Shown here one piece after another: positions 3,676 to 33,274 of a stretch of 33,959 nt of DNA. Source of the DNA: a virus; the IMG/VR virus record IMGVR_UViG_3300023296_001263, positions 1 to 33,959 of that record. One strand, given 5' to 3'. Under the pieces are notes generated by a model. It saw nothing but the letters and a program-made list of their open reading frames with translations. It searched no databases and was not told the DNA's origin. Every line of letters begins with the position of its first letter. Position 1 is the first letter of the stretch. The position numbers and the translations under genes are program-made.

Positions 3676-3890
3676 ATTCTCACTGCCTCAATTTTAGAGT
3701 TTATTCTAATTTTTTTGTTTTTAAATTTCTGCTCGATGATTAAGCGCAGGACTAAACTGATAGGTATACCACTTCGTTCAGATTCAACTCTTATTTGATC
3801 CACAATCTCGTTAGGTAACCTGAGATACATAGGTTGAGACTTCACACCGAACTTTCCTTTAATAATTTCTTTACTTTTAATTGTTGCCAT
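3672..3890 (-). CDS. Ribbon-helix-helix DNA-binding protein, candidate early regulator
   Basis: The 72-aa basic protein has a strand SQPMYLRLPNEIVDQIRVES followed by RSGIPISLVLRLIIEQKF, the beta-helix-helix layout of Arc/MetJ/CopG-type repressors (about residues 17-55). It is the first gene of the minus-strand operon and faces the divergent primase gene across 58 bases, the usual position for an autoregulator of both promoters. A good Shine-Dalgarno (AAGGAG five bases before the ATG) supports the start. Target and sign of regulation are not known. Confidence 0.8.
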   Translation of the reverse strand: MATIKSKEIIKGKFGVKSQPMYLRLPNEIVDQIRVESERSGIPISLVLRLIIEQKFKNKKIRINSKIEAVRI

Positions 3891-3948
3891 TTCGACTCCT
3901 TAGTGATAATCAATATAAACAACTTAGCAAATTCTAAAAGGTTTTAAA
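3891..3948. promoter_or_regulatory. Divergent early promoter/operator region
   Basis: These 58 bases separate the minus-strand recombination operon from the plus-strand replication genes, so both promoters must lie here or in the flanking coding ends. The stretch is AT-rich. On the minus strand TTGCTA, 16 bases, then TATCAC precede the Shine-Dalgarno AAGGAG; on the plus strand AATATAAAC lies about 25 bases before the primase Shine-Dalgarno AAAAGG. Matches to sigma-70 consensus are only partial. The ribbon-helix-helix protein encoded alongside is the natural candidate to bind it. Confidence 0.45.
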
Positions 3949-4725
3949 ATGAATTTATCTGACAATTCTATTAGTGTTTCCTACAGCACAGACAAAAGCA
4001 TGAACCCCAAGCGTTATTCAAAAGATTTCAAAGTGCACAGGTGCACTAGCTTTTCCGATGTATCTAGAGCCGCATTAAAATGCGTATGGTCTGGAATAGT
4101 TTGGAAGGATGGGGTTAGAGCACAAAGCAGCTTTGATTACTCTAGCCTCTGCGTACTCGATTTCGACTCAGGCATAAGTATCCAGCGGGCCATAGAATTG
4201 TTTTCTAAATACTGTTGTATTATTGGTACTACCAAATCACATACAGAAGAAAATCCGAGACTGCGAGTTATCATTCCATGGGAATTAGAAATTAGAGTGC
4301 TGGAATTATATAAGTACAACATGAAGCACATTATTGACATGGTTGGATCCGATGTTGCTTGTAAAGATGGTGCCCGATTTTTCTACCCATGCAAAGAGAT
4401 AGTCTTTTCAAACATGTCTGGATACCCCTTACTAATCCGCAGAGAAATTCCTAATAGAGATATCTATTTAGATCACAAACAAAACGTCGCCAATATGAGA
4501 GGGCTTCCTCACTGGGTGAACGAATTTCTATTCAATGGGAACCACTATGGCAAAGGTCGCAACAATACATGTTTCGCAGTGTCCATTTTTTTAATGGAGC
4601 TTAATTATTCAAAAGATGAAATAATCGGAAAACTCAAATCAGCCCCATTCTCACGTGAAGATTTTAGCGACCAGGAGATTCTCTCCGCGGTTAACAGCGC
4701 CATGCGGCGTTTTAAAGGATTTTAG
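3949..4725 (+). CDS. Archaeo-eukaryotic-type primase (PrimPol) with PriCT domain
   Basis: The 258-aa protein has the AEP catalytic pattern: CVLDFDSG with D71 and D73 as metal ligands, then TTKSHTEENPRLRVIIP with H98 and basic residues R104/R106. The C-terminal part (from about residue 195) looks like a PriCT helical domain (GKGRNNTCFAVSIFL, then acidic helices and a final SAVNSAM). It should make primers at the phage origin. The partner helicase is encoded as a separate gene 11 bases downstream; in many phages the two are fused. A Shine-Dalgarno AAAAGG is present. Confidence 0.85.
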   Translation: MNLSDNSISVSYSTDKSMNPKRYSKDFKVHRCTSFSDVSRAALKCVWSGIVWKDGVRAQSSFDYSSLCVLDFDSGISIQRAIELFSKYCCIIGTTKSHTEENPRLRVIIPWELEIRVLELYKYNMKHIIDMVGSDVACKDGARFFYPCKEIVFSNMSGYPLLIRREIPNRDIYLDHKQNVANMRGLPHWVNEFLFNGNHYGKGRNNTCFAVSIFLMELNYSKDEIIGKLKSAPFSREDFSDQEILSAVNSAMRRFKGF

Positions 4726-4736
4726 AAGGATACGTT

Positions 4737-6380
4737 ATGACAGAAGATGACAAGAAGAAGGAAGACAGGGAGCCGCAAACTCCCGGAAATAGTAATGTCA
4801 AATCCATTGGCAACACTAGCGGAGAAGTTCGAGAAAAGCAAGATCGCCGTATTAAAGAAATCGAAAAAGATAAAAATGATTTTTTAACGATGGAGACAAC
4901 AGTCCTAACGAATTTTTGGGAGGTGATCGAAGGCAAGAAATTAATCAGAACTCCTTTTACATTGCCAGAAGTAAAAATTAAATTTGAAACAATATTTAAA
5001 AAAAATATAGTAAATCTCAACGGAATATTGACTTGTGTTGATGACGATAACCTATGGGAATTAAAAGATGATCCTGAGTTTTTTGCATTTTTACAACACA
5101 CATTAACGTTAAATTGGGCTACCGGTGCAAATATGCCTACACAAAAGCACTTTTTCTCATATATGCGTCAATTCTGTCCAAAGTATGCTGATATTTGCAA
5201 ATATCCCCACTATCCCCGTGTTACGCAATATCTATGCCAAAATGACATAGAACCAGAGAATAATGGCAAGTTGGGTGAGCTTCTAACTTTTTTTAAGCCA
5301 GCAACGGATGTTGATAAACACCTACTTGAAGCATTCTTTATAACTCCGAGTTGGGGTGGGAAGCCAGGTACTAGGCCAGGGTTCAGCATTCAAGGGGTCG
5401 ACGAAGATATCAAAGGTGGAATCGGAGTTGGTAAAACCACTGTCTGCGAAAGCCTGGCTAATATTTTTGCCACTAAGATGCTAGATTTTAGCATCACTGA
5501 CTCTAAAAGTTTTTCCATGAAAATGCTGGGCAACCAAAACAATTCTCGAATTATTCGCTATGACAATGTTAAGACCGATAAACTCGACAGTGATGTCATT
5601 GAGTTTATGCTGACTTCAAGCAGTTTCACTACTGATAAAAAATGGGCCAGCTCTGTAACTCTCCAGAATTATTACACAACTGTGATAACGTTCAACAACC
5701 CATCCTTTTCAGAAGACATGGCAGCCAGGCTGATCAACATTCACTTGGAACGACCTTCCTTAGCTGAGCGGCGCGTATTTGCGAAAGAGCTACCTGAGTT
5801 TATTGAAGCTAATAGAGACGCAATTATAGCGGATATTTTATATAGGCTACAGAATGCTAAGGGTGAGGTTGACTGTGAATGGGGGACAAGGTTCCCAGCT
5901 TGGGAAACAGAGGTCTTACTCCCTTCATGTGGTCAAGCAATGCCAGAGGTTCTAAAAACCATTTTAACCAGACAGGGTGTTATTTCAGAGTCCTCAACAG
6001 CAGCTGATGACATTGCTGAAATATTTGAATCAAATATCCGCGACGCCATACGTCAGACTCGTCAAGAAAACGGCGGGACTAATGACTTGGAGAACAGCTG
6101 GAAGGCGGATAATGAGATTCAGTTTTTTGTCCCTAGTGCCATACTTAGAGACTGGCTAATCAGGTATTACGGTAAAAAGTTCGGCCCAAAAAAGACTGCT
6201 CAGTTTACCAAAGAACATATGAGCGATGAAATCATGGTTTGTAATTTTGGTGATATCCGTGGGTTTTGCATAAACATGAAGGGTACCCCTAGCTTCGATA
6301 CTGGAGCCTATCCGATTTATAAAAGCAAAAACTACGAAAAGGTAGACCTGCTTTCCACAAAGATAAAACGTCAATCTTAA
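4737..6380 (+). CDS. D5-type (DUF5906-like) superfamily 3 replicative helicase
   Basis: The 547-aa ATPase has Walker A GGIGVGKTT (about 228-236), a Walker B-like IIRYDN (272-277), sensor asparagines in VITFNNPSF (about 317-324) and an arginine finger in AARLINI. This is the D5-like SF3 helicase core that forms ring hexamers. The first 110 residues are charged, possibly an interaction arm; the C-terminal 100 residues may be a winged-helix DNA-binding domain. With the primase it forms the replication pair. As no DNA polymerase gene is seen, host polymerase is probably recruited. The candidate origin lies directly downstream. AAGGA precedes the ATG. Confidence 0.88.
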   Translation: MTEDDKKKEDREPQTPGNSNVKSIGNTSGEVREKQDRRIKEIEKDKNDFLTMETTVLTNFWEVIEGKKLIRTPFTLPEVKIKFETIFKKNIVNLNGILTCVDDDNLWELKDDPEFFAFLQHTLTLNWATGANMPTQKHFFSYMRQFCPKYADICKYPHYPRVTQYLCQNDIEPENNGKLGELLTFFKPATDVDKHLLEAFFITPSWGGKPGTRPGFSIQGVDEDIKGGIGVGKTTVCESLANIFATKMLDFSITDSKSFSMKMLGNQNNSRIIRYDNVKTDKLDSDVIEFMLTSSSFTTDKKWASSVTLQNYYTTVITFNNPSFSEDMAARLINIHLERPSLAERRVFAKELPEFIEANRDAIIADILYRLQNAKGEVDCEWGTRFPAWETEVLLPSCGQAMPEVLKTILTRQGVISESSTAADDIAEIFESNIRDAIRQTRQENGGTNDLENSWKADNEIQFFVPSAILRDWLIRYYGKKFGPKKTAQFTKEHMSDEIMVCNFGDIRGFCINMKGTPSFDTGAYPIYKSKNYEKVDLLSTKIKRQS

Positions 6381-11358: not shown

Positions 11359-12327
11359 ATGACTTATATTATAGCTGAGGTTGGCTCAAACTTCAGGACT
11401 TTTGAAAACTGCGTAGAGTGTATTGAATTAGCTGCTGAGTGCGGCGCTGATGCTGTGAAGTTCCAGAAATATGACGATGTATCTTTGTATGGTTTTGATG
11501 CTGGCAAAGATATGGCTCAGTACTCCATTGATGGTGATTGGATACCAGAGTTATCAGCCCATGCGAAAGATCTGCAGATAGATTTCGGAGTGACGTTCTT
11601 TAACTGTGAAGATGTAGACAAGTATGGTGAGTACGTAGATTTCTTTAAGATCGCTAGCAGTGATATGAATGATCATGAATTGTTTATGGCTATAAAAAAG
11701 AAAAGAACTAGTTTGAAGAAAGTATATATCTCAACTGGTGGTCACACTCTCCTTGAAATAGGTAACAGATATCACATTATCAAAAGTCATCTTAGCGATA
11801 ATGAGTTCGATTTTATGTATTGCGACTCATCGTATCCAGCAGAATCAATTGATAGCAAAAAGGTTTTTGATCTATTCAGGATGATTAGTCAAGAGCCATG
11901 CATCAGTGATCACACTGTAGGGATAGCCAAGATATGTTTATCGAATGAGATGTTTAAGTACAACGTGGTTGAGAAGCATGTGAACTTGCTTGATATTAGA
12001 AGACGACCGGACAGTGGTGAGTTTGCAATTAGCTATAACATCTTCGCTGACATGGTGAAGAAGATTAAGATGACTACAGCTAAGCCGCTTGAGAAGACTG
12101 AAGACTCAGTTCTGAAGTCAGAGGAATCAATGAGGTTATTGCACAATCGTCGTTTAGTAGCTATAAAGAAGATAGCAAAAGACGACATATTAAAAATTGG
12201 AGATAACTTTGGTTATTTTCGCGGTTTGGCTCCAGAAAAGGATTATCTGGAATTCCATCACATAGATGTGATTAACGGCACGGAAGCTACGAGAGACTAT
12301 GGACCCGGGAACTCAATTACGATTTAA
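11359..12327 (+). CDS. neuB: NeuB/PseI-type nonulosonic acid synthase
   Basis: The 322-aa TIM-barrel synthase would condense phosphoenolpyruvate with a six-carbon amino sugar to give a nine-carbon nonulosonic acid (sialic, legionaminic or pseudaminic type). Family signatures are ADAVKFQ (30-36), FKIASSD, STGG, SDHTVG, VEKH, and RRPDSGEFAIS. A C-terminal SAF (antifreeze-like) domain contains RRLVAIKKIAKDDILKIGD followed by FRGL. Length is slightly under the usual 335-350. It lies alone between small packaging-region genes and terL (29-base overlap), 16 kb from the other sugar genes, so it is late-expressed. Sub-specificity (NeuB, LegI or PseI) cannot be decided by eye. Confidence 0.9.
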   Translation: MTYIIAEVGSNFRTFENCVECIELAAECGADAVKFQKYDDVSLYGFDAGKDMAQYSIDGDWIPELSAHAKDLQIDFGVTFFNCEDVDKYGEYVDFFKIASSDMNDHELFMAIKKKRTSLKKVYISTGGHTLLEIGNRYHIIKSHLSDNEFDFMYCDSSYPAESIDSKKVFDLFRMISQEPCISDHTVGIAKICLSNEMFKYNVVEKHVNLLDIRRRPDSGEFAISYNIFADMVKKIKMTTAKPLEKTEDSVLKSEESMRLLHNRRLVAIKKIAKDDILKIGDNFGYFRGLAPEKDYLEFHHIDVINGTEATRDYGPGNSITI

Positions 12328-13621
12328 GCCACATTCTTTAAAGCAGCAGGCTTGTCTGTTCTCTGAAAAGAGAATGATAATCTTAGCGTGCGGTATTCAG
12401 TTTGGTAAGACGTCGGTGGGTGCTTGGAGAACTAAGCTTTACATGCATAGGTTCTCTGATCCAAGCGATAGTTTCATCATAACCGCACCTAGTTATAAGA
12501 TTATGCAGCAGGCTACGTTGCCAGCTTTCTTGAGTATCATGGAGGGTTGTGGCGAATACAAAAAAGGCGACCAGATGTTTGAGATGCATGGTGGTGGCAA
12601 ATGCTTTATGCGTACCTCAACCGATCCAAACTCAGTAGTTGGTATCACTAACGTTCGTCATATCTGGGGCGATGAGGCTGGTATCTATCCACTGTACTTC
12701 CACCAGAATTTACAAGCACGATCGTCATTCAAAGAATGTCCGATTATATATACAACCTCACCGTATTCATTGAACTGGATCTATGCTGACTACATACGTA
12801 AGCGGCAGAAAGATCCGAATTGTTTAGAACATCTAGAGCTGATACAGGCTAGGTCTGATGAGAACCCATACTTCCCTAAAAAAGAGTACGAGCAAAAGCG
12901 TGCTACAATGGACCCAAGACAATTCAACATGATCTACGGTGGAGAGTTTCATAAACTTGAAGGCCTTGTATACGACATTTACGATCAGGATCTACATAGT
13001 ATCGAAGCTGTTCCTGATGACGCTCAGCCTTATTATGTTTCTGGCGTGGATTGGGGTTACACGAACCCGGCGGTTATTCTAACTTTTGGTGTCTGTAGAA
13101 AATACGGTGTATTCCTTGTCAATGAGTTCTACGCAACCAGTAAGACTATCGGTGAGATGGTTGAAGCTGCTAGGCGTATCAAGAGGTTATTCGATGTTCA
13201 AAGATTCTTATGCGATCCAAGTAGCCCGGCGAATATTGTTGAGTTCAACAAAGCAGGGCTTACAGCTATTAAAGCTAATAACGATATCCGTTCTGGTATC
13301 GATGCTCTTTACGAGCTGATGAGCATGAACATGTTCGCGGTGGTTGGTGACTGCGCCCCGAACTTTACCGATGAAGTCAGCATCTACCACTATCCACAAG
13401 ACAACAACATCAAGCCAGATCAAGATATTAAGGATCGGCTACCAGTGAAGCAGCATGATCACGCAATGGACGCGGCTCGATATGTGGGTCTATATCTGAA
13501 GATGACTAAGATGAATTTGAAGCGAGCACCGACAGTGCCGGGCATGAGTGCCACTGATACCAGGCTGCACGCCTCGGATGAACTACTAAAAAGACAACTA
13601 CAAGAGGAATACGACTGGTGA
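12299..13621 (+). CDS. terL: Terminase large subunit
   Basis: The 440-aa packaging motor has an ATPase domain with Walker A-like ACGIQFGKTS (30-39) and Walker B VRHIWGDEAG (119-128, catalytic E126). The nuclease domain starts at SGVDWGY (metal Asp) and ends with DHAMDAARY. It translocates DNA into the prohead through the portal and cuts it. It starts inside the neuB-like gene and its stop overlaps the next gene in GTGA. The order TerL, zinc-ribbon, portal, scaffold, coat is normal for short-tailed phages. Confidence 0.95.
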   Translation: MDPGTQLRFKPHSLKQQACLFSEKRMIILACGIQFGKTSVGAWRTKLYMHRFSDPSDSFIITAPSYKIMQQATLPAFLSIMEGCGEYKKGDQMFEMHGGGKCFMRTSTDPNSVVGITNVRHIWGDEAGIYPLYFHQNLQARSSFKECPIIYTTSPYSLNWIYADYIRKRQKDPNCLEHLELIQARSDENPYFPKKEYEQKRATMDPRQFNMIYGGEFHKLEGLVYDIYDQDLHSIEAVPDDAQPYYVSGVDWGYTNPAVILTFGVCRKYGVFLVNEFYATSKTIGEMVEAARRIKRLFDVQRFLCDPSSPANIVEFNKAGLTAIKANNDIRSGIDALYELMSMNMFAVVGDCAPNFTDEVSIYHYPQDNNIKPDQDIKDRLPVKQHDHAMDAARYVGLYLKMTKMNLKRAPTVPGMSATDTRLHASDELLKRQLQEEYDW

Positions 13622-17041: not shown

Positions 17042-17962
17042 ATGGCACTAGCACTTGACCAGCTTAATGCGATCACTGAAAAGTATTTTGTAAAAAAGCT
17101 ACATGACAATATTTTTGATTCAAATCCATTACTACGAAGAATGAAGAACTCTGGTTCTTATAAAAGCGTAGGCGGTGGTACTCAGATTTTAACACCATTA
17201 AACTATGCAACAACTACTGCTGCTGGTTGGTATTCAGGTGCTGATACTCTTAGTACAACTGATAACGATAATATTACGGCTGCAGCTTATGACTGGAAGT
17301 CTCTTTATGCTGGTGCTTCCATCACTGAAGAAGACGAAATGAAAAATAGCGGCGAGCAGGCTCAGTTGAACTTGCTTAAGTCTAAGATCATGATCGCTGA
17401 GAAGACATTAAAAGATAGTCTTGGTACTGGTCTTTTCTCTGCAGGAACTGATTCTAAGTCAATCGTTGGTTTAAGAGACATCGTTGCAACTGATCAAACC
17501 GTGGGCGGAATCTCGCAGACCGATAATGCCTGGTGGTCTGGACAGGTAGATTCTTCAACGACAACTTTGACTATGGCAACTTTGAATGCTGTATACCAAG
17601 ATTGTACTGTAGATTCAGAGAATCCTGACTACCTAGTTGGGACTCGATCGACCTATAATGACTACTATGCATTGCTTCAGCCACAGCAGCGATTTATGAG
17701 CGAAGATGAGGCAAAAGGCGGATTTTCCTCTTTAATGTTCAATGGTTCCGTCTTTACTCATGATTCTCATTGCCCGACTGGACACATCTTTTTGCTCAAT
17801 CTTGATCATCTATGTTTGTTCTATCATCCTAAGAGAAACATGACTTTCGAGCCATTCCAGAAGCCGATCAACCAACAGGTCAAAGTGTCGCGATTCTTAT
17901 GGATGGGAGCGTTAGGTTCAACTAACAACAGACTTCACGGTAAGATGTCAGCATTGACCTAG
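17042..17962 (+). CDS. Major capsid protein
   Basis: The 306-aa protein follows the scaffold. Its pattern (N-terminal helix LDQLNAITEKYFVKKLHDNI, then SGSYKSVGGGTQILTPLNYA and a long spine-type helix NSGEQAQLNLLKSKIMIAEK) is that of HK97-fold coat proteins of small podoviruses and siphoviruses. It has Shine-Dalgarno AAAGAGG. It would form the icosahedral shell and is a potential acceptor for the glycosyltransferase encoded two genes later. A hairpin follows its stop. Confidence 0.9.
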   Translation: MALALDQLNAITEKYFVKKLHDNIFDSNPLLRRMKNSGSYKSVGGGTQILTPLNYATTTAAGWYSGADTLSTTDNDNITAAAYDWKSLYAGASITEEDEMKNSGEQAQLNLLKSKIMIAEKTLKDSLGTGLFSAGTDSKSIVGLRDIVATDQTVGGISQTDNAWWSGQVDSSTTTLTMATLNAVYQDCTVDSENPDYLVGTRSTYNDYYALLQPQQRFMSEDEAKGGFSSLMFNGSVFTHDSHCPTGHIFLLNLDHLCLFYHPKRNMTFEPFQKPINQQVKVSRFLWMGALGSTNNRLHGKMSALT

Positions 17963-18030: not shown

Positions 18031-18516
18031 ATGGCTTATAATTCAGCAGGCCCGGTAGTATTTGCGGGCGTAAGTGCAGTAACAGCAACTCGTGGGGCGA
18101 ATGATCCACAGGTTGGTACTCGTGCGACTATCGAAGGCGAGACTTATGTATATGTTTACAACGAAGGTGGCGAGCAGATTCAACCATCTTATGCAGCAGT
18201 ACTTGATGCAAGTTCAGCAACTTCAGGTTACTCTGTAACTATTAGTTCTGTATCAGGTGTTGATATGATGATCGGTGTTTGTAAGCACGCGACTATCACA
18301 ACTGGTGCTTATGGTTGGTTGATGGAGCAAGGCTTCGTTAACGTTGAGATGGAAGCTGACAACTCAGGTGTAACTGGTGCTATTTTAGCTCTAGCTGCTA
18401 ATGGCGAGTTTGCTGCCAAATCTAATTCAACTGGATACGCAGGTAAAACTGTAGGCCAGATGATGGAATCTATAGCATCAGCAGCAAGTGGTCTAGCGTA
18501 TATTTCTGTATATTAA
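18031..18516 (+). CDS. Putative head decoration protein (161 aa)
   Basis: The 161-residue, strand-rich, Ala/Gly/Ser-rich protein directly follows the coat gene. Its text (for example QVGTRATIEGETYVYVYNEG, GVCKHATITTGAYGWLMEQG) resembles the small beta-barrel decoration or cement proteins that are added to the mature shell. There are many Ser and Thr residues that could serve as O-glycosylation sites, relevant because the next gene is a DUF115 glycosyltransferase. No specific family is recognised. Confidence 0.68.
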   Translation: MAYNSAGPVVFAGVSAVTATRGANDPQVGTRATIEGETYVYVYNEGGEQIQPSYAAVLDASSATSGYSVTISSVSGVDMMIGVCKHATITTGAYGWLMEQGFVNVEMEADNSGVTGAILALAANGEFAAKSNSTGYAGKTVGQMMESIASAASGLAYISVY

Positions 18517-18536
18517 TTTTGTATTGAGGCCGTGTG

Positions 18537-19556
18537 ATGAAAACTCGTAATATGGTGGTTGAGTATCAGAATCTGATATTTCAGCCTCCGGTTCCTAAGG
18601 ATAGTCTATTTCAACAAGCTTGTAGTAATGATGAAACAACCATTACTCACTGGCTTGATACTTGGATTGCGAACATAAAATCGAATCATGAATCACACGG
18701 CCCTTTTTCAGAAAACGGTCTTGGACAATTGTTCGGGCAATACAGACATAGACCTGTGATCGTTGCTGGCAGCGGGCCATCTTTGAAGTATAATGCTGAT
18801 GAACTGAAGAACCGGAATGGGATACCTCTCGTGTCGTGTCTTCATAATTTTCATTTCTTTGAAGACCGCGGAGTGGAACCAGAATATTACGTAACACTTG
18901 ATGCTGGTGATGTTACAGTAGAAGAAGTCTCAGAGGGTGGACTCAAGGACGAGTCATTCTACTGGGATCTTACAAAAAATCGCTCGTTGATTGCGTTCAT
19001 AGGGACGAGTCCAAAGTTAATAGAGAAATGGCAAGGCAAGATATATTGGTTCAATGCACCAGTGCCAGGCGATGAGTATATCAAGAGAGTTGATGAGATT
19101 GAGAAGTTTCATACATTGGTATCGAATGGCGGGAATGTACTTGGTGGATGCTTATATATTTCCAAAGGTTTCTTTGGCGCTGGCTCTATAATCTTTACAG
19201 GAGCTGATTTCAGTTTTGGGTACGATAGAAAGTTCCATGGCTGGGATAGTAAATATGATCAGAATATGGGGAACTGTGTTCCTTTGGTTGATGTATTTGG
19301 TAATAAGATACCGACATGGCAATCCTATGCGAATTTTAAGGGTTGGTTTGATTGGGTGGCTTTGCATGTACCTGGTATTTATATCAATTGTTCTGAAGGC
19401 GGTTGTTTAGGTAGTTATCCAGATGGCAATTTGAATAGTTTTAAATATATGGACTTAAAAGACTGTATAGCAATGTATTCAATGTGCGATAATCTTAAAG
19501 AACAAAGTGTTAATCCAAAGGTCGAAGGACCGGATGGAATGAAAATTCTTTTCTAG
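18537..19556 (+). CDS. DUF115/Maf-type glycosyltransferase (MptE-like superfamily)
   Basis: The roughly 339-aa protein carries the DUF115 signatures: HRPVIVAGSGPSL (about 71-83), a VSNGGNVLGG segment (195-204), FTGADFSFGY (220-229) and the late YINCSEGG (282-289). This family includes Maf proteins that add pseudaminic or legionaminic acid to flagellin serines or threonines, and, more distantly, MptE 6-hydroxymethylpterin kinases. It lies in the head block, after the coat and putative decoration genes, while the same phage encodes nonulosonic acid synthesis. The best reading is a transferase acting on a virion or host surface protein. GAGG seven bases before ATG 18537 favours it over GTG 18534. 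Confidence 0.8.
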   Translation: MKTRNMVVEYQNLIFQPPVPKDSLFQQACSNDETTITHWLDTWIANIKSNHESHGPFSENGLGQLFGQYRHRPVIVAGSGPSLKYNADELKNRNGIPLVSCLHNFHFFEDRGVEPEYYVTLDAGDVTVEEVSEGGLKDESFYWDLTKNRSLIAFIGTSPKLIEKWQGKIYWFNAPVPGDEYIKRVDEIEKFHTLVSNGGNVLGGCLYISKGFFGAGSIIFTGADFSFGYDRKFHGWDSKYDQNMGNCVPLVDVFGNKIPTWQSYANFKGWFDWVALHVPGIYINCSEGGCLGSYPDGNLNSFKYMDLKDCIAMYSMCDNLKEQSVNPKVEGPDGMKILF

Positions 19557-25711: not shown

Positions 25712-27709
25712 ATGCCTGATTTAAAGCAGACAGAAAAAGTATTAAACTTTATAGCGGATAACCCTGGTGATAAAAGATCGGGTGCAGCTATGCAAAAATT
25801 TGGATTACAACCGCAAGCAGTGCAAGCTTGGAAAGCGGTGCGTGATACTCCGGATCATCCTAAAAAAGCAGAGGTACGAAATAAGGTTTACGATACCATT
25901 GCTGAGAATTCTCCTGGAAAAGATCCTGGAAGACTTTCACCAGGTGGCGCAGGTTTTCTAAATAGGTTCGCTATCAAGAACTTGATTTCAAATAGTCCTG
26001 ATCAAGCACAGAAGTTTTTAACTAAGCAAGGCTTTGATTCAAGAATTGTGGACGGTGAGATAGAAGTAAAGAAACCAGGAGAACCTGAGTATGTTCAATT
26101 GGATTCGCCTAAGTTTGATATCTTTGATATTCCAGATTTAGCAAGTGATATAGCTGAAGCAGTTGCCACGGGTGTAGGTACATTTTTTGGCAGTATCCCA
26201 GGCGCTGCTGCAGGTGCTGCTGCTGCTGAAACAGTTAGGCAAGGCGTTGGTCTTGCTACTGGTGTAAGAGAAGATTTTGAACCAATAGAAGTACTTGATG
26301 CTACCGAATTAGGCCTTATTGGGGGAGTCGGAGGAAAAGTAGTTGGCAAAGGTTTAAAGTTTTTTGGCGATAAAATTGGTTCATTGATAGGTAGAATTGT
26401 TAAACCCAAAGAAGCTGCTGAAGAAATTATAGCCGCTACAAAAGAAATAGGTGGAGAAGCAGTTGCTGGACAACTACTAGACAATCAGTTGGTTCAAAAG
26501 CTGACAGCTCAGTTAGCTGAGAATCCTGGGACCTTAGCCGGTCAGGCTTTAAGAAAAAATGTTGCCAAAAACTTCGATGCAGCGGAAAAAGCTGCACAAG
26601 AAATAGTGAAAGATGCTTCTACATTATCCCCTTTTGAGGCAGGGCTGAAACTTACAAATGATTTTAAAGAAATTGTTGCAGATAGAATTGAGCCAGCTGC
26701 GAACATTTACAATAAATACGATAAGATTTTTAAAGAAGCAAAAATTGATAGTCCGCCGGAAGGCATTATAAAAGCCATAAAAGATGAGTTCGCCGATGTC
26801 TTCGCAGACGACGAAGCTACAAATGCATTAAAAAGTCTTTTATCAAAAACTGATCAGATAGATACTATTGACAAGATAACTAAATTTAGAACTAACATTA
26901 GAAAAATGGCTTCATCGAGTCAAAATGGTAATTTAATTGGTTCATTGAAACAGATATACAGAAAAACTTCTGATTCAAGATTAGAGGAAACTATATCTTT
27001 GGCAGGTGTGCTAGACAATCCAATGTTAGCTATTAAAGAAATTAAAGAAGCTGATGCTATTTATAAAAGCGTTGCCGACGATGTAAAGAACGTTTTCGTT
27101 GATCGCGGCAAAGTTGTCATTGGTTCACCAAAGAGGATCTTAGAGAACTTCTTTGAAAAAACTAAGGAAGTAAATGTAGTTAATAAACTTTTAGATACAA
27201 ATGACCCGCGTAGAATAAAAAAAGTCAAAGAAGCTTTTCCAGAAATTTTTGAAGTCATGCGTGAATCTAAGATTGGAAACTTCTTAGAAAAATCGTCATT
27301 AAAAGGTGAACTGAATAAAAACAATCTCGTGAAATCTATTGGAAAATTACCAAAAGAATCTGCTAATTTGATATTTGGCGAGAATGGCATTAAAAAAGCC
27401 AAAGCTCTGCAAACTTATTTGAACAGTTTTCCTGGCCCTTTGAATACGTCGAAAACAGATGTTAGTAGATCACTTAAAGAAATGTTTAATATATTCTCTC
27501 AGGCTGGTGCATTAGGTAGATCTCAATTATTAGGTCTGCTTACCAATTCTCAGCTGGGAAAAAACATGTTTCAAAAAACTGGGAATCTTCTTCAGAAGCC
27601 TAGTACCATTGGTTCATTCCAATTTGGTTTACAACAACTAAACAATATTAGACCAAGAGAGAGCCAACCGAGTATAATACAACCAACACCAAGTTTTAGA
27701 GGGCAATAA
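25712..27709 (+). CDS. Large putative internal/ejection protein (665 aa)
   Basis: The 665-aa helical protein is the longest product of the genome. It contains a glycine/alanine membrane-active segment near residues 150-175 (GVGTFFGSIPGAAAGAAAAE) and a second one near 200 (LGLIGGVGGKVVGKG), followed by long Lys/Glu-rich helices and a Gln/Asn-rich C-terminus. Size, position and composition fit the largest of three ejected proteins. No muralytic motif (lysozyme or transglycosylase) is seen. It overlaps the fibre gene in TAATGG. Confidence 0.72.
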   Translation: MPDLKQTEKVLNFIADNPGDKRSGAAMQKFGLQPQAVQAWKAVRDTPDHPKKAEVRNKVYDTIAENSPGKDPGRLSPGGAGFLNRFAIKNLISNSPDQAQKFLTKQGFDSRIVDGEIEVKKPGEPEYVQLDSPKFDIFDIPDLASDIAEAVATGVGTFFGSIPGAAAGAAAAETVRQGVGLATGVREDFEPIEVLDATELGLIGGVGGKVVGKGLKFFGDKIGSLIGRIVKPKEAAEEIIAATKEIGGEAVAGQLLDNQLVQKLTAQLAENPGTLAGQALRKNVAKNFDAAEKAAQEIVKDASTLSPFEAGLKLTNDFKEIVADRIEPAANIYNKYDKIFKEAKIDSPPEGIIKAIKDEFADVFADDEATNALKSLLSKTDQIDTIDKITKFRTNIRKMASSSQNGNLIGSLKQIYRKTSDSRLEETISLAGVLDNPMLAIKEIKEADAIYKSVADDVKNVFVDRGKVVIGSPKRILENFFEKTKEVNVVNKLLDTNDPRRIKKVKEAFPEIFEVMRESKIGNFLEKSSLKGELNKNNLVKSIGKLPKESANLIFGENGIKKAKALQTYLNSFPGPLNTSKTDVSRSLKEMFNIFSQAGALGRSQLLGLLTNSQLGKNMFQKTGNLLQKPSTIGSFQFGLQQLNNIRPRESQPSIIQPTPSFRGQ

Positions 27710-28509
27710 TGGCAAATCCAAGCGTAACCTATACATTTACAAATGGCACAGTGGCAGACGGAACTGAAGTTAACACGAACTTTTCAGATCTGATTGCAAG
27801 TTTAACTGATGGCACAAAATCATTATCTATAGATGCGATAACTGGGGCTGGTGCAGCTACATTTAATGGCAACACAACATTGGGGAATGCAGCAGGCGAC
27901 ACGCTTACTGTTAACGCTACAACTACTTATGCGAATCCCGTAAGCTTTGACGGCAACGTTACTCTAGGCGATGCGGTCGGCGATACTATCAATGTTAAGG
28001 GTACAGCTGATTTTGATGAGGACGCGACCTTTGATAAGGCAATCATAGTTACAACTGATTCATCCTTTGCTGCTGATGTTGGAATCGGTGAGCTTGCGCC
28101 AGATGTTCAATTACATTTAACGCAGAATGAAACTACAACTACTACTCAGATGAAAATAGAAAACCAAAGTGGATCAAGTGGAACCGGAACAGCTATAGAA
28201 TTCGCCATAGCAAACAGTAGTACTGCTAATGCAAAGATGATAGTTGAGAGAAGCGGAACCGCAGGTACTCAATTTTTATTTCAGAATGGCGATACTGTAT
28301 CTACTACACCGATAACCAGATTAAAAATTTTTCCAACAGGCGAAATAGGTATTGGAGGCAGTGGCGAGACTAGAACACACCAGCTTAATACAGGCACCGC
28401 TACAACAGCATCACCCGGTGCTAACGCTGATGTTCCAAGTCAAGTAGTAGGATATATAACTGTAACTCTTAATGGCTCAGCTAGAAAAATACCATACTAC
28501 GGAAACTAA
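27709..28509 (+). CDS. Short tail fibre protein (266 aa)
   Basis: The 266-aa strand-rich protein has an N-terminal segment VTYTFTNGTVADGTEVNTNF common in tail fibres. Two related repeats follow (TFNGNTTLGNAAGDTLTVNA and SFDGNVTLGDAVGDTINVKG), then a beta shaft, and the end AGTQFLFQNGD to SARKIPYYGN. It is short for a receptor-binding fibre and has no chaperone domain, so it may trimerise as a short fibre or connect to another protein. It is the last structural gene before the sugar operon. Confidence 0.78.
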   Translation: MANPSVTYTFTNGTVADGTEVNTNFSDLIASLTDGTKSLSIDAITGAGAATFNGNTTLGNAAGDTLTVNATTTYANPVSFDGNVTLGDAVGDTINVKGTADFDEDATFDKAIIVTTDSSFAADVGIGELAPDVQLHLTQNETTTTTQMKIENQSGSSGTGTAIEFAIANSSTANAKMIVERSGTAGTQFLFQNGDTVSTTPITRLKIFPTGEIGIGGSGETRTHQLNTGTATTASPGANADVPSQVVGYITVTLNGSARKIPYYGN

Positions 28510-28586: not shown

Positions 28587-28808
28587 ATGTCTATTGAATT
28601 GCTCATCTGCTTGCCTATTGTTGTGTGTTCGTTAACACTCAATGCCTATTTATATCTCAAAATCAAAGAAAACAAGAAAAAGCCTCAGCTCACCGACGAC
28701 GCTAATTATTTACTTGCGACCCTTTTAAAGAGAAAAGCTTGTGTAATAGTTGAGATGGTTGATCCAGGTCAGATGTTTTTGTTTGGTTCAAAAGGTAGGG
28801 ACTCATGA
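28587..28808 (+). CDS. Small membrane-anchored protein at head of sugar operon (73 aa)
   Basis: The protein has one transmembrane helix near its N-terminus (IELLICLPIVVCSLTLNAYL) and a basic stop-transfer KIKENKKK, so the remainder is cytoplasmic. The C-terminal part (NYLLATLLKRKACVIVEMVD) may form a short helix-strand unit. It overlaps the dehydratase start in ATGA, so it may tether or couple the first enzyme of the pathway to the membrane. ATG 28587 preferred over TTG 28578. No family recognised. Confidence 0.7.
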   Translation: MSIELLICLPIVVCSLTLNAYLYLKIKENKKKPQLTDDANYLLATLLKRKACVIVEMVDPGQMFLFGSKGRDS

Positions 28809-29644
28809 AAATCGTAATATTTGGTGGTACCGGGACATTGGGTCAAGCTATTTGTAAGCTTATTCCAAAAGATGCTCAGGTATGGATTGTATCGCGTTGT
28901 GAGTTGAGGCAGAAAGAACTCAGATCTCAGTATCCTAATTTCAATTATGTGATCGGTGATGTTCAGAATTTTGGTTGGGCTGAGAAATTACCTAAAAAAG
29001 CAGATTACGTTATGAACTTTGCTGCTTCAAAGCACATAGAAGTTTGCGAAGATAATGTAACTAACTGCGTAAAAACTAATTATCAAGGCGTGGTTCATAC
29101 TTACAAGTACTCGCATCGATCAGGTGCAAAATATATATTCACATCTACTGACAAAGCTGTGAAACCAATCAATGCTTATGGTATGGCCAAGGCGTTAGGC
29201 GAGAAATATCTTGCTGACAAAAGCGATGCGACGGTTTTCCGATGGGGTAATATATTAGGAAGTCGCGGTAGTTTCTTTCATGTAATCTTGAACAAGCTTG
29301 CGAATGATGAGCCAATCCCTATTACTGACCCTGAGATGACACGATTTTGGATGCATATAGACGATGCAGCAGATTTCCTTTGGAGCAATCTAAATACAGA
29401 ATCAAGGCTCATGTATCCGGGAAAGGATATTATGGTCGCTTGTGGTTTAATGGATATACTCGATATTATCAGCGATGAGACTGGTTTGAATTATAGTGCA
29501 GATGTAGTCGGCATGCGACCTGGTGAAAAGATTCATGAAGACATCTATCACGATGAATTGGAGAGAGTCACTGAATCATCGAATTGGAATATAGAATTAA
29601 ATAGGGTCGACATTATTGAGCTGGTTCAAAGGTGTTTAGCATGA
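28805..29644 (+). CDS. PseB/FlaA1-like UDP-sugar 4,6-dehydratase (extended SDR)
   Basis: The 279-aa extended SDR enzyme has the Rossmann start IVIFGGTGTLGQAI (GxxGxxG), then AASKHIEVCED, the active-site STDKAVKPINAYGMAK with D116, K117 and Y125 in the same spacing as the H. pylori PseB triad D-K-Y, FRWGNILGSRGS, ITDPEMTRFWM and MRPGEKIHE. These match the polysaccharide-biosynthesis CapD/PseB group, which turns UDP-GlcNAc into a 4-keto-6-deoxy sugar, the first step of pseudaminic-type pathways. It is shorter than the usual 320-340 aa. It overlaps both flanking genes in ATGA, so the enzyme is made in step with them. Confidence 0.88.
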   Translation: MKIVIFGGTGTLGQAICKLIPKDAQVWIVSRCELRQKELRSQYPNFNYVIGDVQNFGWAEKLPKKADYVMNFAASKHIEVCEDNVTNCVKTNYQGVVHTYKYSHRSGAKYIFTSTDKAVKPINAYGMAKALGEKYLADKSDATVFRWGNILGSRGSFFHVILNKLANDEPIPITDPEMTRFWMHIDDAADFLWSNLNTESRLMYPGKDIMVACGLMDILDIISDETGLNYSADVVGMRPGEKIHEDIYHDELERVTESSNWNIELNRVDIIELVQRCLA

Positions 29645-30237
29645 TCAGCATTATCGGTATGGGAAATATGGGAAAGCGTTATGGCGCTATCCTAGACTAT
29701 CTTGGTGTGCCATGGAAAGGCGTAGACAAAGACGCTGATTTGACGAAGCTACCTGACTCAGATAAATTTATTCTGAGCAGTTCTACTGAAGCTCATTTTG
29801 ATAATTTAAGAACCATAGCGGAATACGGTAAACCTGTTTTATGTGAAAAGCCTATAACACAGAATATATCTGAACTCGATGATATTCTTAATATCTACAG
29901 AGATATCCCATTTAGAATGGTCAACCAGTATGAGCATTTGCAAGCACCTAGCTGGCACGATCACTCAAAGAAAATGACCTATTACAATTATTTTAAAACC
30001 GGCAAAGATACAATGTATTGGGATTGTATTAATATAATTGGCCTAGCCAAGGAAAAACCTGGAATACATAATAATTCACCAGTGTGGAAGTGTGCTATCA
30101 ATGGTCATAAATTGAATATTGCTGACATGGATACAGCATACATCACAGAAGTGAAAAATTTTGTGCGTGGTGACGTTGATAATAAAGATTATATTTTGAA
30201 GGCCCATAAACGTATCTATGAAAGGTTTTGGGTTTGA
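29641..30237 (+). CDS. Short Gfo/Idh/MocA-family oxidoreductase (198 aa)
   Basis: The protein has a Rossmann N-terminus ISIIGMGNMGKRYGAIL and the family motif CEKPIT, but only 198 residues, against 330-350 for the family. The large C-terminal beta-sheet domain that binds the sugar and makes the dimer is largely absent, replaced by a short unit (MTYYNYFKTGKDTMYWDCIN). It might use another pathway protein as partner, be a minimal phage version, or have lost activity. Full-length relatives occur in many bacterial sugar clusters beside SpsF and NeuB. ATG 29641 overlaps the previous TGA. Confidence 0.78.
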   Translation: MISIIGMGNMGKRYGAILDYLGVPWKGVDKDADLTKLPDSDKFILSSSTEAHFDNLRTIAEYGKPVLCEKPITQNISELDDILNIYRDIPFRMVNQYEHLQAPSWHDHSKKMTYYNYFKTGKDTMYWDCINIIGLAKEKPGIHNNSPVWKCAINGHKLNIADMDTAYITEVKNFVRGDVDNKDYILKAHKRIYERFWV

Positions 30238-30938
30238 ACAAAGTAATAATTGGCATACAAGCACGTTCAACCAGTGAGCGCTTGCCTGGTAAAAGTATGA
30301 TGAAGATATCCGGTCAGTATATGCTTGAGCGGACTATCAAGAGTTGTCATAGATCTTGTGATTATATAACCAATAAAGAGGGTTCAAATATCATCTGTGA
30401 CACGGTGGTTCTTACTCCTACAGGCGATCCTATAAAAAGGCAATATGGTAACCGCGCGAATATCTTTGAAGGTCCTGAAGAAGATGTGTTGTCCAGGTAT
30501 CATTTGATGTCTCAACAGTATAAAGCTGATTATTATGTACGAATCACGGGCGATTGTCCTTTGATTCCCAGTTTTGTTATTTCAAAGCATATAGTAGCTG
30601 CGTGTAATTACAAATACGATTACGTTTCCAATGTAGATGAAGCGTGCCGAACGCATCCTGATGGTTGGGATGTTGAAGTGATCAGCTCAAAACTACTCGA
30701 ATGGTGCCATGAGAATGCTACAGATCCTATGGACCGTGAGCATGTGACTACATATATTAGATCGAATACTCCGAGTTGGGCTCGCACAGCAGGATTTGTT
30801 GGATACGTAGATTTTTCTACTTTAAAAATATCGGTGGATACTCAGGACGATCTTACATTCGTTCGTGCTTACGATGAAGTTCTGGAAAAGAAAATGAAAC
30901 TTGCTAAAAATAAATATGATCGGGTTTTCAGGTTATGA
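30234..30938 (+). CDS. SpsF/NeuA-type cytidylyltransferase
   Basis: The 234-aa enzyme shows the nucleotidyltransferase start KVIIGIQARSTSERLPGKSM (CTP-binding loop), DTVVLTPTGDP, EEDVLSRYHLMSQQ, VRITGDCPLIP (metal Asp) and a late DTQDDLTFV. This is the SpsF/CMP-Kdo/NeuA family; it should activate an acidic sugar such as a nonulosonic acid as its CMP form. The start is probably TTG 30234, which overlaps the previous TGA and has AAAGG eight bases upstream; TTG 30228 is too close to it. It overlaps the aminotransferase in ATGA. Confidence 0.88.
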   Translation: MNKVIIGIQARSTSERLPGKSMMKISGQYMLERTIKSCHRSCDYITNKEGSNIICDTVVLTPTGDPIKRQYGNRANIFEGPEEDVLSRYHLMSQQYKADYYVRITGDCPLIPSFVISKHIVAACNYKYDYVSNVDEACRTHPDGWDVEVISSKLLEWCHENATDPMDREHVTTYIRSNTPSWARTAGFVGYVDFSTLKISVDTQDDLTFVRAYDEVLEKKMKLAKNKYDRVFRL

Positions 30939-32698
30939 ATGATATTCTACATAGATCAAGAAACGCTATAGCTCAAGGTGCTTTGACCAATTCGAAGCAT
31001 CCTGATTGTTATATATCTGGGCTACATCCTAGTCATATAAAGCGAGGTAATGGTGCAAAAGTATTTGACGGTAGAGGTCAGAGCTATGTTGATTTTGTTG
31101 GCGGCTTGGGTGCTGGTTTCTTTGGTTGGAATAACAAATATATCAACAACGCCATATCAAAAAGCCTCAACGACGGTATATGTCATTCACTTCCCACATT
31201 CTATGAAGTTGAAGCTGCAGAGAAATTAAAAGAAATATTCTTTTTTGTGGATTGCTTTAAATTCTTGAAGACTGGTTCAGAAGCTTGTATGGCAGCCATT
31301 CGCATTGCGAGAAATCATCATGGAGTTCAAAATGGAAACACGCATTTGCACGAAATGCTCGAAAGAAAAATCTTTGACAGAATTTCACATGAGAGACAAA
31401 AAGACGAACTTGAGAAGAAAACAATGCAAAGTATGCATCAAGATGTTTCAAGCCTCTCCGAAAATCAGGGAAATCAAAAGAATAGCTCAAAGGAAATACT
31501 CAAAGACAACGAAAGGGATAGCAGCGGAAAAAAAGCACTCAAAAATAAGATACGAGAAGAACAAAATCAACGGGAAAGCGAAAGTCTATCAAGCAGTGAG
31601 AATAGCAAAAGATACTGGAACAATCATACAAAAGCCGTGTCAGACATGTGGCGAGAAGAACTCAGAAGCCCATCATCCGGATTACACGAAACCTCTGTTC
31701 GTGACATGGTTGTGTCCGAGGCATCACGGGGAAATGCACCGAAATGGTTGATATTAAGTGACGGTTATCATGGTCATAGCGATCAATTTATTTCAATGTT
31801 ATCACCAGCAGGTGGCGTTCCGATAGACTATGGAATTTTACCTTTAACAGGCAATGAAGATTTAATAGAATTAGCAGCCGCAGTCATTATTGAACCAGTC
31901 GTCACTGACTATAGCGCTGAACGGATCGAGTACCTTAAAAAGCTGCGAGCTAAATGTGATGAGACGGGAGCCTTGCTCATATTTGATGAGATCATTACGG
32001 GGTTCAGATTTAAAAAGCATTCCGTAGCCAGTTACACAAATATCATTCCTGATCTGATCGTACTTGGCAAAGCTATGGCAGGTGGAATGCCGTTAGCAGC
32101 TGTGGGTGGTAAAAGAGAGATAATGAATGACCAGCGATATTTTGTTAGTTCAACCTATGCAGGTGAAGTAGCAAGTTTAGCTGGATGTATCGCGGCTTGT
32201 GATTTATTGTTGAAAAATCCTTCCTACAATGTGGATAGCTTGTGGACTGAGGGTCAGAAATTTATCAACATGATTAATAATAATAAATATTTTAAGTTGG
32301 AAGGCTATCCTACTCGTGGTCGATTTGTGGGCGACGAAGAAAAGATCAATATATTTATCCAGGAAACAGCTAAGTGTTACATGATATTTTGCAGATCGTG
32401 GTTCATTAACTGGAACATTATTGATGAGTTACCTACTTTATATCCAAGTTTTTCAGAAATATTGAGTTCAATTAATGATGGCAGCTCCAAGTTAGAGGGC
32501 AAGCCGCCGATGTCGCCGATGGCATCAGCATTTAGAAAGGAAAAAGAATGTCAGAAACCCCAGAAAATATCGTCTGTAACTCCCTTGAGGAAGCCGCCGA
32601 TCACATCGAAAAAGTCCGCTTCGAGGCCAACAAAGCCAACGACCAATTCCGCGAAAACTTCAAACAGCTCACGGGGTTCGAACCGGGACAACAAATGA
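30935..32698 (+). CDS. Class III (GSA-type) PLP aminotransferase with nested HNH gene
   Basis: The frame is 587 codons, of which roughly 400 are aminotransferase. Family features are YVDFVGGLGAGFFGWNN, KTGSEACMAAIRIAR, then (after an insert at about residues 129-270) KWLILSDGYHGHSDQFIS, IFDEIITGFRF and the PLP lysine K379 in VLGKAMAGGMPLA. The insert is Lys/Glu/Ser/Asn-rich, without domain character, and is the other-frame reading of an HNH gene (31320-31751). The frame also runs about 50 codons past the likely natural C-terminus (PPMSPMASAFRK) into the next gene. The enzyme would transaminate a keto or aldehyde sugar. Whether the product with the insert folds is unknown; the catalytic residues flank it. 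Confidence 0.82.
   Translation: MNDILHRSRNAIAQGALTNSKHPDCYISGLHPSHIKRGNGAKVFDGRGQSYVDFVGGLGAGFFGWNNKYINNAISKSLNDGICHSLPTFYEVEAAEKLKEIFFFVDCFKFLKTGSEACMAAIRIARNHHGVQNGNTHLHEMLERKIFDRISHERQKDELEKKTMQSMHQDVSSLSENQGNQKNSSKEILKDNERDSSGKKALKNKIREEQNQRESESLSSSENSKRYWNNHTKAVSDMWREELRSPSSGLHETSVRDMVVSEASRGNAPKWLILSDGYHGHSDQFISMLSPAGGVPIDYGILPLTGNEDLIELAAAVIIEPVVTDYSAERIEYLKKLRAKCDETGALLIFDEIITGFRFKKHSVASYTNIIPDLIVLGKAMAGGMPLAAVGGKREIMNDQRYFVSSTYAGEVASLAGCIAACDLLLKNPSYNVDSLWTEGQKFINMINNNKYFKLEGYPTRGRFVGDEEKINIFIQETAKCYMIFCRSWFINWNIIDELPTLYPSFSEILSSINDGSSKLEGKPPMSPMASAFRKEKECQKPQKISSVTPLRKPPITSKKSASRPTKPTTNSAKTSNSSRGSNRDNK
31320..31751 (+). CDS. HNH-type homing endonuclease nested in the aminotransferase
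   Basis: The 143-aa basic protein has a treble-clef N-terminus (ICTKCSKEKSLTEFHM then CKVC) and a C-terminal HNH-like nuclease region (CQTCGEKNSEAHHPDYTKP, FVTWLCPRHHGEMH), as in small phage HNH endonucleases. Between them lies a Lys/Arg-rich DNA-binding stretch. The start is probably ATG 31320 or 31332; a TTG at 31305 is unlikely. It is read in a different frame from the aminotransferase and ends seven bases into the restored enzyme sequence. The insert holds no room for a self-splicing intron, so it is an intronless mobile gene. Confidence 0.88.
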   Translation: MEFKMETRICTKCSKEKSLTEFHMRDKKTNLRRKQCKVCIKMFQASPKIREIKRIAQRKYSKTTKGIAAEKKHSKIRYEKNKINGKAKVYQAVRIAKDTGTIIQKPCQTCGEKNSEAHHPDYTKPLFVTWLCPRHHGEMHRNG

Positions 32699-32760
32699 CA
32701 GCTTTCACCACATATCAGATGGTAACTAAGTTATTATTTGGCGATAAAAAAGATGATTGA
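32548..32760 (+). CDS. Small hypothetical protein with aberrant codon usage (70 aa)
   Basis: The 70-aa acidic helical protein (NSLEEAADHIEKVRFEANKA, NDQFRENFKQLTGFEPG) is not of a recognised family. Its first 151 bases overlap the aminotransferase frame. In its first 50 codons, 23 of 27 codons ending in a pyrimidine end in C, whereas its neighbours mostly end in T, indicating recent acquisition. A clear Shine-Dalgarno AAAGGAAAAAG precedes the ATG. The function could be unrelated to sugar metabolism. Confidence 0.75.
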   Translation: MSETPENIVCNSLEEAADHIEKVRFEANKANDQFRENFKQLTGFEPGQQMTAFTTYQMVTKLLFGDKKDD

Positions 32761-33274
32761 TTATCGGCGAGGGGTTTATTTGAGGCCGCTCGATCCTGAC
32801 AATCTAGAGATATACAGAGAAGAGCGAAACCAGCCTGATGTGCGTAGATGGTGCCGTCAAACTGGTTTAATAGATGGGAATGACCAGAAAGCTTGGTATG
32901 AAAGGCAGCGCTTGGATACCACTATATCCATGTTTGAGATTGCCAAGAAGAATGGTGATTTTTTAGGTGTATGTGGTTTAACCTCAATTGACAGTGTTAA
33001 TCGTAGGGCGGAATTTTCGCTGTGGATAAAAAGATCCGAGCAGCGGCAAGGATATGCTAGAATGGGATTAGCAACACTTTTAGACTTTGCATTCGGTGGA
33101 TTGAACCTACATCAGGTTTGGGGAGAGACTCTCGAGAGCAATCCAGCATATCAGATGTTCATGAAAATGGGCTTCAGGTATGAGGGCACTCGACGGGATT
33201 TCTACTACAAAGATGGAAGGTTTTGGGGTGCTCAGTTAGTTAGCATTAAGAGGGCAGAATGGGAAGTATTGTAA
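32753..33274 (+). CDS. GNAT N-acetyltransferase (RimJ/PseH-like)
   Basis: The 173-aa protein has the GNAT fold of the RimJ/RimL type: YLRPLDPDNLEIYREERNQP, ISMFEIAKKNGDFLGVCGL, AEFSLWIKRSEQRQGYARMG (acetyl-CoA pyrophosphate loop, RxxGxA-like QGYARMG), then the late NPAYQMFMKMGFRYEGTRRD. This layout is shared with PseH, the acetyltransferase acting on the 4-amino group of UDP-sugars in pseudaminic acid synthesis. It could act on a ribosomal or other protein instead. ATG 32753 overlaps the previous stop; TTG 32738 is the alternative. Confidence 0.85.
   Translation: MIDYRRGVYLRPLDPDNLEIYREERNQPDVRRWCRQTGLIDGNDQKAWYERQRLDTTISMFEIAKKNGDFLGVCGLTSIDSVNRRAEFSLWIKRSEQRQGYARMGLATLLDFAFGGLNLHQVWGETLESNPAYQMFMKMGFRYEGTRRDFYYKDGRFWGAQLVSIKRAEWEVL

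Follow-up and report, generated by a model that had tools for sequence, protein, structure and literature searches.

The stretch of DNA analysed here in full (the window) is IMG/VR virus record IMGVR_UViG_3300023296_001263, 33,959 bases long, and a 127-bp terminal direct repeat indicates that it is a complete phage genome. It encodes six enzymes of families that build nonulosonic acids (NulOs), together with a Maf-type glycosyltransferase located among the head genes (Table 1). An earlier sequence-only reading of the window had placed five NulO-family genes at 28805-33274 and a NeuB-type synthase at 11359-12327, and profile searches confirmed these families and positions. The chaining by ATGA or TTGA overlaps that it described was also found, at 28805, 29641 (an ATGA overlap if the miniature Gfo/Idh gene starts there), 30234, 30935 and 32753. 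Its estimate that about 15% of the genome is spent on the pathway is close to the 16.0% measured for the six genes, or 19.0% with the Maf-type gene. That reading was of a pathway only: the NulO families are indeed present, but the transferase at 18534-19556 was overlooked and neither an acceptor nor a transferase was named. Also overlooked were the splitting of the aminotransferase gene by an HNH endonuclease gene, the small open reading frame (ORF) at 32548-32760 and the completeness of the genome.

Table 1 Features of the window discussed in the text.
Feature	Positions	Strand	Match or remark
NeuB/PseI-type nonulosonate synthase, 322 aa	11359..12327	+	PF03102 87 bits; directly upstream of, and overlapping, the terminase gene
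Terminase large subunit (TerL), anchor gene overlapped by NeuB	12299..13621	+	phrog_2, 130 bits
Major capsid protein, candidate glycosylation target	17042..17962	+	phrog_9953, 205 bits
Small structural-type (decoration-like) protein, Ser/Thr rich, second candidate target	18031..18516	+	beside capsid gene, 30/30 records
Compact Maf-type (MptE-like, PF01973) NulO glycosyltransferase, 340 aa	18534..19556	+	PF01973 62.8 bits, cut-off 34.6
PseB/FlaA1-type UDP-GlcNAc 4,6-dehydratase (short-chain dehydrogenase/reductase, SDR)	28805..29644	+	PF02719 167 bits
Miniature Gfo/Idh/MocA enzyme, 201 aa	29632..30237	+	PF01408 36 bits, N-terminal half only
SpsF/NeuA-type CMP-NulO cytidylyltransferase	30228..30938	+	PF02348 59 bits, over cut-off
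Class III (GSA-like) pyridoxal phosphate (PLP) aminotransferase, interrupted	30935..32698	+	PF00202 in two stretches
HNH endonuclease, nested out of frame in the aminotransferase gene	31320..31751	+	phrog_2340, 91 bits
Small ORF between aminotransferase and GNAT genes	32548..32760	+	no family
GNAT N-acetyltransferase, PseH-like	32738..33274	+	PF13302 67 bits; probable start 32753

The major capsid gene is followed by that of a small protein, and the Maf-type gene starts 18 bases past the latter. We scored 30 genomes or contigs, the window and 29 relatives, with profiles built in this analysis, and in 30 of 30 the Maf-type gene belongs to the head gene block, placed after the capsid gene and the gene of the small protein. 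PF01973 is the central domain of Maf, and Maf enzymes are cytoplasmic transferases that attach NulOs to Ser/Thr residues of flagellin (PMC11339370, PMC13317340). An AlphaFold2 model built from 16 phage sequences (predicted local distance difference test score, pLDDT, 86.9) has Maf 5MU5 as its best fold (Z 22.9, 3.0 Å, 243 residues), followed by the archaeal pterin kinase MptE (Z 15.3) and then by sialyltransferases (Z ~9.5). Residues 171-177 of the capsid protein form a run with a Ser/Thr share of at least 90% over the 30 phages. The small neighbour, which had no family match in profile searches, is also Ser/Thr rich, as is the product of a conserved fibre-type gene (27709-28509) that adjoins the five-gene cassette and whose family has the highest Ser/Thr content measured (24%). 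We put forward the Ser/Thr run of the capsid protein and the Ser/Thr richness of neighbour and fibre purely as a suggestion of where a sugar might be attached.

A scan with the Maf alignment showed that at least 122 IMG/VR contigs encode a relative of the window Maf-type protein. The recurrent gene order is NeuB - TerL - portal - capsid - small protein - Maf ... fibre - PseB - Gfo - SpsF - aminotransferase - GNAT, and its recurrence in independent, diverged records shows that the gene set is not a chance assembly. NeuB occurs in 25 of the 26 records that cover its site, the window included. All six NulO enzymes are found in 19 of the scored records, and all seven genomes closed by terminal repeats of 114-127 bp (G003, G014, G015, G017, G024, G025 and the window) carry the six enzymes and Maf. 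In two records (G010 and G028) PseB has been relocated beside NeuB yet retained, and one (G032) is without the miniature Gfo/Idh gene between PseB and SpsF. NeuB and Maf distances are correlated (rho 0.53, p 0.002). Maf, NeuB, PseB, Gfo, SpsF and GNAT distances each correlate significantly with those of the capsid protein; aminotransferase distances do not (p 0.054), and some exchange of the cassette between members is therefore likely. For G003 and G006, dN/dS is 0.10-0.23 in the unsaturated genes, the only ones to which these values refer; between other members dS is mostly saturated. The NulO gene set is a trait conserved in the lineage and no peculiarity of a single contig, and we consider the gene content, the synteny and the Maf fold to be near certain.

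Beyond this lineage, Maf and NeuB had no match among 50,697 records of a cultured-phage collection. The matches of the aminotransferase there were weak and to generic enzymes, and many came from records that lack annotation or look bacterial; capsid proteins in the collection reach at most 32% identity. Viral scans that used the single window NeuB and SpsF proteins as queries returned no matches because the family is too diverged, whereas the Maf alignment did find relatives. A prophage and host search of the genome collection with the same alignment gave no relative and no matching prophage. Distant MptE-like proteins were also found in other uncultured viruses by a structure-based search.

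Among the pathway enzymes, NeuB has K34, S183, H185, E205 and H207 invariant in the phage alignment, and this set of K, SxH and ExH positions, with a PF03102 match over the cut-off, points to a PseI/NeuB-type active site. The phage NeuB profile has as its best solved match the pseudaminic acid synthase 8H2C (168 bits), with N-acetylneuraminate synthases at ~104 bits. The SDR profile best matches FlaA1 (2GN4, 273 bits) and is close to CapE-type enzymes too, whereas PglF-like 3PVZ reaches 98 bits; the catalytic T/S-D-K (TDK) and Y...K positions are invariant in 18 phage proteins. The proximity of NeuB to pseudaminic acid synthase and of the SDR to FlaA1, with the invariant SDR positions, leans towards a pseudaminic-like product. 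The best solved match of SpsF is the cytidylyltransferase 6OEW, and its PF02348 match over the cut-off is what would be expected of the CMP-NulO synthetase (CMP, cytidine monophosphate) of the pseudaminic acid pathway. For the GNAT protein the best solved match is a spermidine acetyltransferase. The last ~50 codons of the aminotransferase gene overlap the small ORF, and small ORFs without known family occur at the same place in several relatives, among them G003 (27783-28076), G006 (5677-5970) and G008 (3777-4007); they measure 76-97 aa in the relatives, or 70-97 aa with the window counted.

The sole aminotransferase of the cassette belongs to class III (PF00202) rather than to the DegT family of PseC in the pseudaminic acid pathway. 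At E <= 1e-66, related class III enzymes were found in 14 of 398 genomes of the phylum Pseudomonadota and in 48 of 296 from the phylum to which a Flavobacteriaceae metagenome-assembled genome belongs. Names were given to the ORFs of the bacterial loci by eye, on the basis of the first residues, unless a profile matched. In the Pseudomonadota loci the class III enzyme adjoins or is fused with SpsF, and NeuB and PseB are present; in the Bacteroidota loci it occurs with transketolase-like, KdsC-like phosphatase and SDR ORFs. NulO clusters are thus a normal setting for the class III enzyme. One Pseudomonadota locus (L248) also contains PseC-like DegT, aldo/keto reductase-like and PseG-GNAT-like fusion ORFs. 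The sequence-only reading had class III possibly standing in for DegT. This may be so, but in the bacterial clusters the class III enzyme accompanies PseC, and the case for a simple PseC replacement in the phages is the weaker for it. The phage aminotransferases form one clade relative to the sampled bacterial enzymes (support 100/100). In three bacterial loci (L244, L245 and L247) the SpsF-type cytidylyltransferase and class III aminotransferase form a single ORF. In three Bacteroidota loci (L254, L257 and L261) two transketolase-like ORFs neighbour the SpsF and class III aminotransferase genes, with a KdsC-like phosphatase and NeuB as well in L257 and L261; a different route to nonulosonate is possible in these three clusters. 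At the cassette site of another member of the phage lineage, G019 (L115-L116, 28140-29090), there is a 316-aa aminotransferase relic in which, as read by eye, the PLP-lysine stretch LGKA has become IGAA, i.e., the PLP lysine is gone.

From these observations it appears very probable that the lineage makes a CMP-NulO. Given that it does, and given the genetics, attachment of the NulO to virion proteins is a good deal more probable than its absence. On balance we favour a phage-encoded virion-glycosylation system in which a pseudaminic-like CMP-NulO is placed on virion proteins by Maf. This reading is drawn from the Maf fold, the site of Maf behind the capsid genes, its co-occurrence with the six NulO enzymes, the retention of PseB where it has moved, the invariant SDR positions, the nearness of NeuB to pseudaminic acid synthase and of the SDR to FlaA1, the known action of Maf enzymes on flagellin, the bacterial clusters that pair the class III enzyme with SpsF, NeuB and PseB, and the NeuB-Maf distance correlation. 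During infection, the PseB-type SDR would produce a 4-keto-6-deoxy sugar linked to uridine diphosphate (UDP), to which the class III aminotransferase would add an amino group that the GNAT enzyme would then acetylate. UDP would be released by the miniature Gfo/Idh enzyme or by a host enzyme, NeuB would join the sugar to phosphoenolpyruvate, and SpsF would add CMP to give the activated NulO. The Maf-type enzyme would finally glycosylate a virion protein at Ser/Thr, as Maf does flagellin; the likeliest acceptor is the major capsid protein or the small one encoded beside it. The analysis shows the gene content, the families, the conservation of gene order and of catalytic residues, the Maf and Gfo folds as predicted models, and the lack of PseG and NeuC; from these we infer what the enzymes act on and in which sequence, whether they are active, which sugar results and what protein receives it.

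Several findings weigh against this reading. Although all families named in the sequence-only reading were matched in the profile searches, the NCBIfam equivalog cut-offs were not reached for PseB, PseH, NeuB or PseI: the SDR scores 143 bits with TIGR03589 PseB (cut-off 408), the GNAT protein 63 bits with PseH, its best NCBIfam model (cut-off 93), and NeuB 99 and 93 bits with TIGR03569 and TIGR03586, both under cut-off. The family is thus certain and the exact reaction is not. The phage Maf is without the N-terminal and helical C-terminal domains of the bacterial enzyme, aligning to residues 238-514 of 632, and its fold is common to the pterin kinase MptE. In G019, the single clear pathway loss, Maf is retained while NeuB, PseB, Gfo, SpsF and GNAT are gone, showing that the lineage can lose the pathway. 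The window itself does not have the intact enzyme chain described earlier: its aminotransferase is interrupted by a 139-residue insert, so the phage's own pathway may be impaired, and production of the sugar by this phage without help is less sure. Lastly, PseG (TIGR03590) and NeuC (PF02350) were found in none of 19 records at E <= 1, with positive controls, in agreement with the absence reported from the window alone. The absence is therefore a lineage rule, not a local gap, and it leaves a gap in the pathway as usually drawn.

A candidate to fill that gap is the miniature Gfo/Idh enzyme, which could release UDP in place of PseG or NeuC. It has an invariant CEKP motif and a Rossmann domain (PF01408), is ~200 aa in the relatives too, and does not have the full-length C-terminal domain of proteins of ~330-380 aa. 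Its AlphaFold2 model (pLDDT 89.9) is nevertheless a complete two-domain fold, miniaturised. The proposal comes from elimination, with six phage pathway genes for six textbook steps, and from the superfamily, which includes NAD-dependent glycoside hydrolases (8QC2-type, Z ~17.7 to the model). The best folds, however, are GenD2 (Z 20.2) and KanD2 (Z 19.2), with GnnA and WlbA also matching, and all four are dehydrogenases that work before an aminotransferase. It is accordingly at least as likely that the miniature enzyme oxidises the sugar and the class III enzyme then aminates it, and UDP release by a host PseG is possible. A genome scan with the miniature Gfo/Idh alignment returned ordinary Gfo/Idh proteins only, matched on their N-terminal half. 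The full combination, in which the lineage has a NulO pathway without a known UDP-sugar hydrolase, the ~200-residue Gfo/Idh enzyme frees the sugar by NAD-dependent hydrolysis and the minimal Maf decorates the capsid, is in our judgement unlikely.

The most serious rival to virion glycosylation by the window phage is that its pathway is dead, the HNH insertion having destroyed the aminotransferase and the remainder now decaying. The inserted segment (31325-31741, 417 nt) lies in the PLP-fold core, flanked by a conserved helix and the YHG motif; in its C-terminal part the window protein deviates from the family consensus, and in relatives the enzyme is uninterrupted at ~400 aa. Against this, the insert does not close the aminotransferase frame. 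When the HNH gene was recoded synonymously 5000 times, 0 of the versions left that frame open, an outcome suggestive of selection for read-through, and the remaining five genes look intact. A dead pathway thus seems to us a substantial possibility, if the less likely one. A group I intron or intein was considered as the interruption and rejected, there being no Rfam match and the insert being fully taken up by the HNH ORF in a different frame.

The other rivals concern the destination of the sugar. It might redecorate the surface of the infected or lysogenic host (capsule, lipopolysaccharide or flagellin) and block superinfection, and an ORF in G003 that by eye resembles a tyrosine integrase suggests that some members may be temperate; the transferase is, however, of the cytoplasmic protein-O type, stays inside the head gene block in every record, and no prophage in the genome collection matches, so we hold this to be rather improbable. 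We give similarly little credit to a tail fibre or other tail protein as acceptor instead of the capsid: the cassette does adjoin the fibre-type gene with its Ser/Thr-richest product, but the transferase gene is located behind the capsid genes, away from the fibre. Least probable by far is a role for the Maf-type protein as an MptE-like enzyme dependent on a pterin or another nucleotide, with the sugar destined, say, for DNA or cell-wall modification. The Pfam domain is named MptE-like and the archaeal HPPK MptE is the second-best fold, but Maf is clearly better, the CMP-NulO pathway co-occurs and sialyltransferases rank next.

If virion glycosylation is correct, phages of ~34-40 kb devote about one fifth of their genome to a sialic-acid-like particle coat, and decoration of the virion with a phage-made charged sugar belongs to the core traits of an entire lineage. 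This would explain a flagellin-type transferase among head genes and would provide a minimal Maf enzyme, possibly useful in protein engineering. Should NAD-dependent hydrolysis and capsid decoration both hold, this would be the first case of a phage building a sialic-acid-like coat for itself. The role of such a coat, whether in stability, adhesion or evading recognition by host or grazer, and the way in which the pathway runs without PseG are questions that the system raises. The sequence-only reading had suggested that such a pathway could be new for phages of this size, and our literature search, with preprints and most subscription papers outside its reach, likewise turned up no account of a phage that encodes NulO synthesis together with a Maf transferase.

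To our knowledge, no Maf-type enzyme is involved in the sps legionaminic acid pathway of Bacillus subtilis, and virion glycosylation in mycobacteriophages involves neither a phage-encoded NulO pathway nor a Maf-type enzyme. The closest parallel is flagellin glycosylation by Maf in Campylobacter, Aeromonas and Clostridium (PMC13317340, PMC11339370), which shares with the phages the CMP-NulO genes, a PF01973 transferase and an acceptor that is a self-assembling protein surface, although in the phages the acceptor is a proposal. The phages differ in having no flagellin, a Maf reduced to the catalytic domain (340 aa) and located behind capsid genes, no PseG, and a class III enzyme in place of the DegT aminotransferase in the gene set. 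The B. subtilis pathway has in common an SpsM-type dehydratase, an aminotransferase, an acetyltransferase, SpsE and SpsF, and decorates a proteinaceous coat, the spore crust, as is proposed for the phage coat; unlike the phages, it includes the UDP hydrolase SpsG and a DegT-type SpsC (PMC7439481). Among phages, work by Freeman et al. (2023), cited in PMC12619734, describes capsid and tail tube glycans of mycobacteriophages made by phage transferases. Acinetobacter prophage epaA/epaB and phage O-acetyltransferases act on NulO, but they only modify host-made capsule NulO and do not synthesise it, whereas the lineage described here encodes synthesis (PMC12053666, PMC6586298). The bacterial class III clusters (L243-L262) likewise pair the class III enzyme with SpsF, adjacent or fused, and have NeuB too, joined by PseB in Pseudomonadota; they differ in the extra DegT, reductase and PseG-GNAT ORFs of L248, in the transketolase-like, phosphatase and SDR ORFs of the Bacteroidota loci and in the separate clade of the phage enzymes. 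The enzymes and the type of decoration are thus known, and it is their combination and their place in a phage genome that are new.
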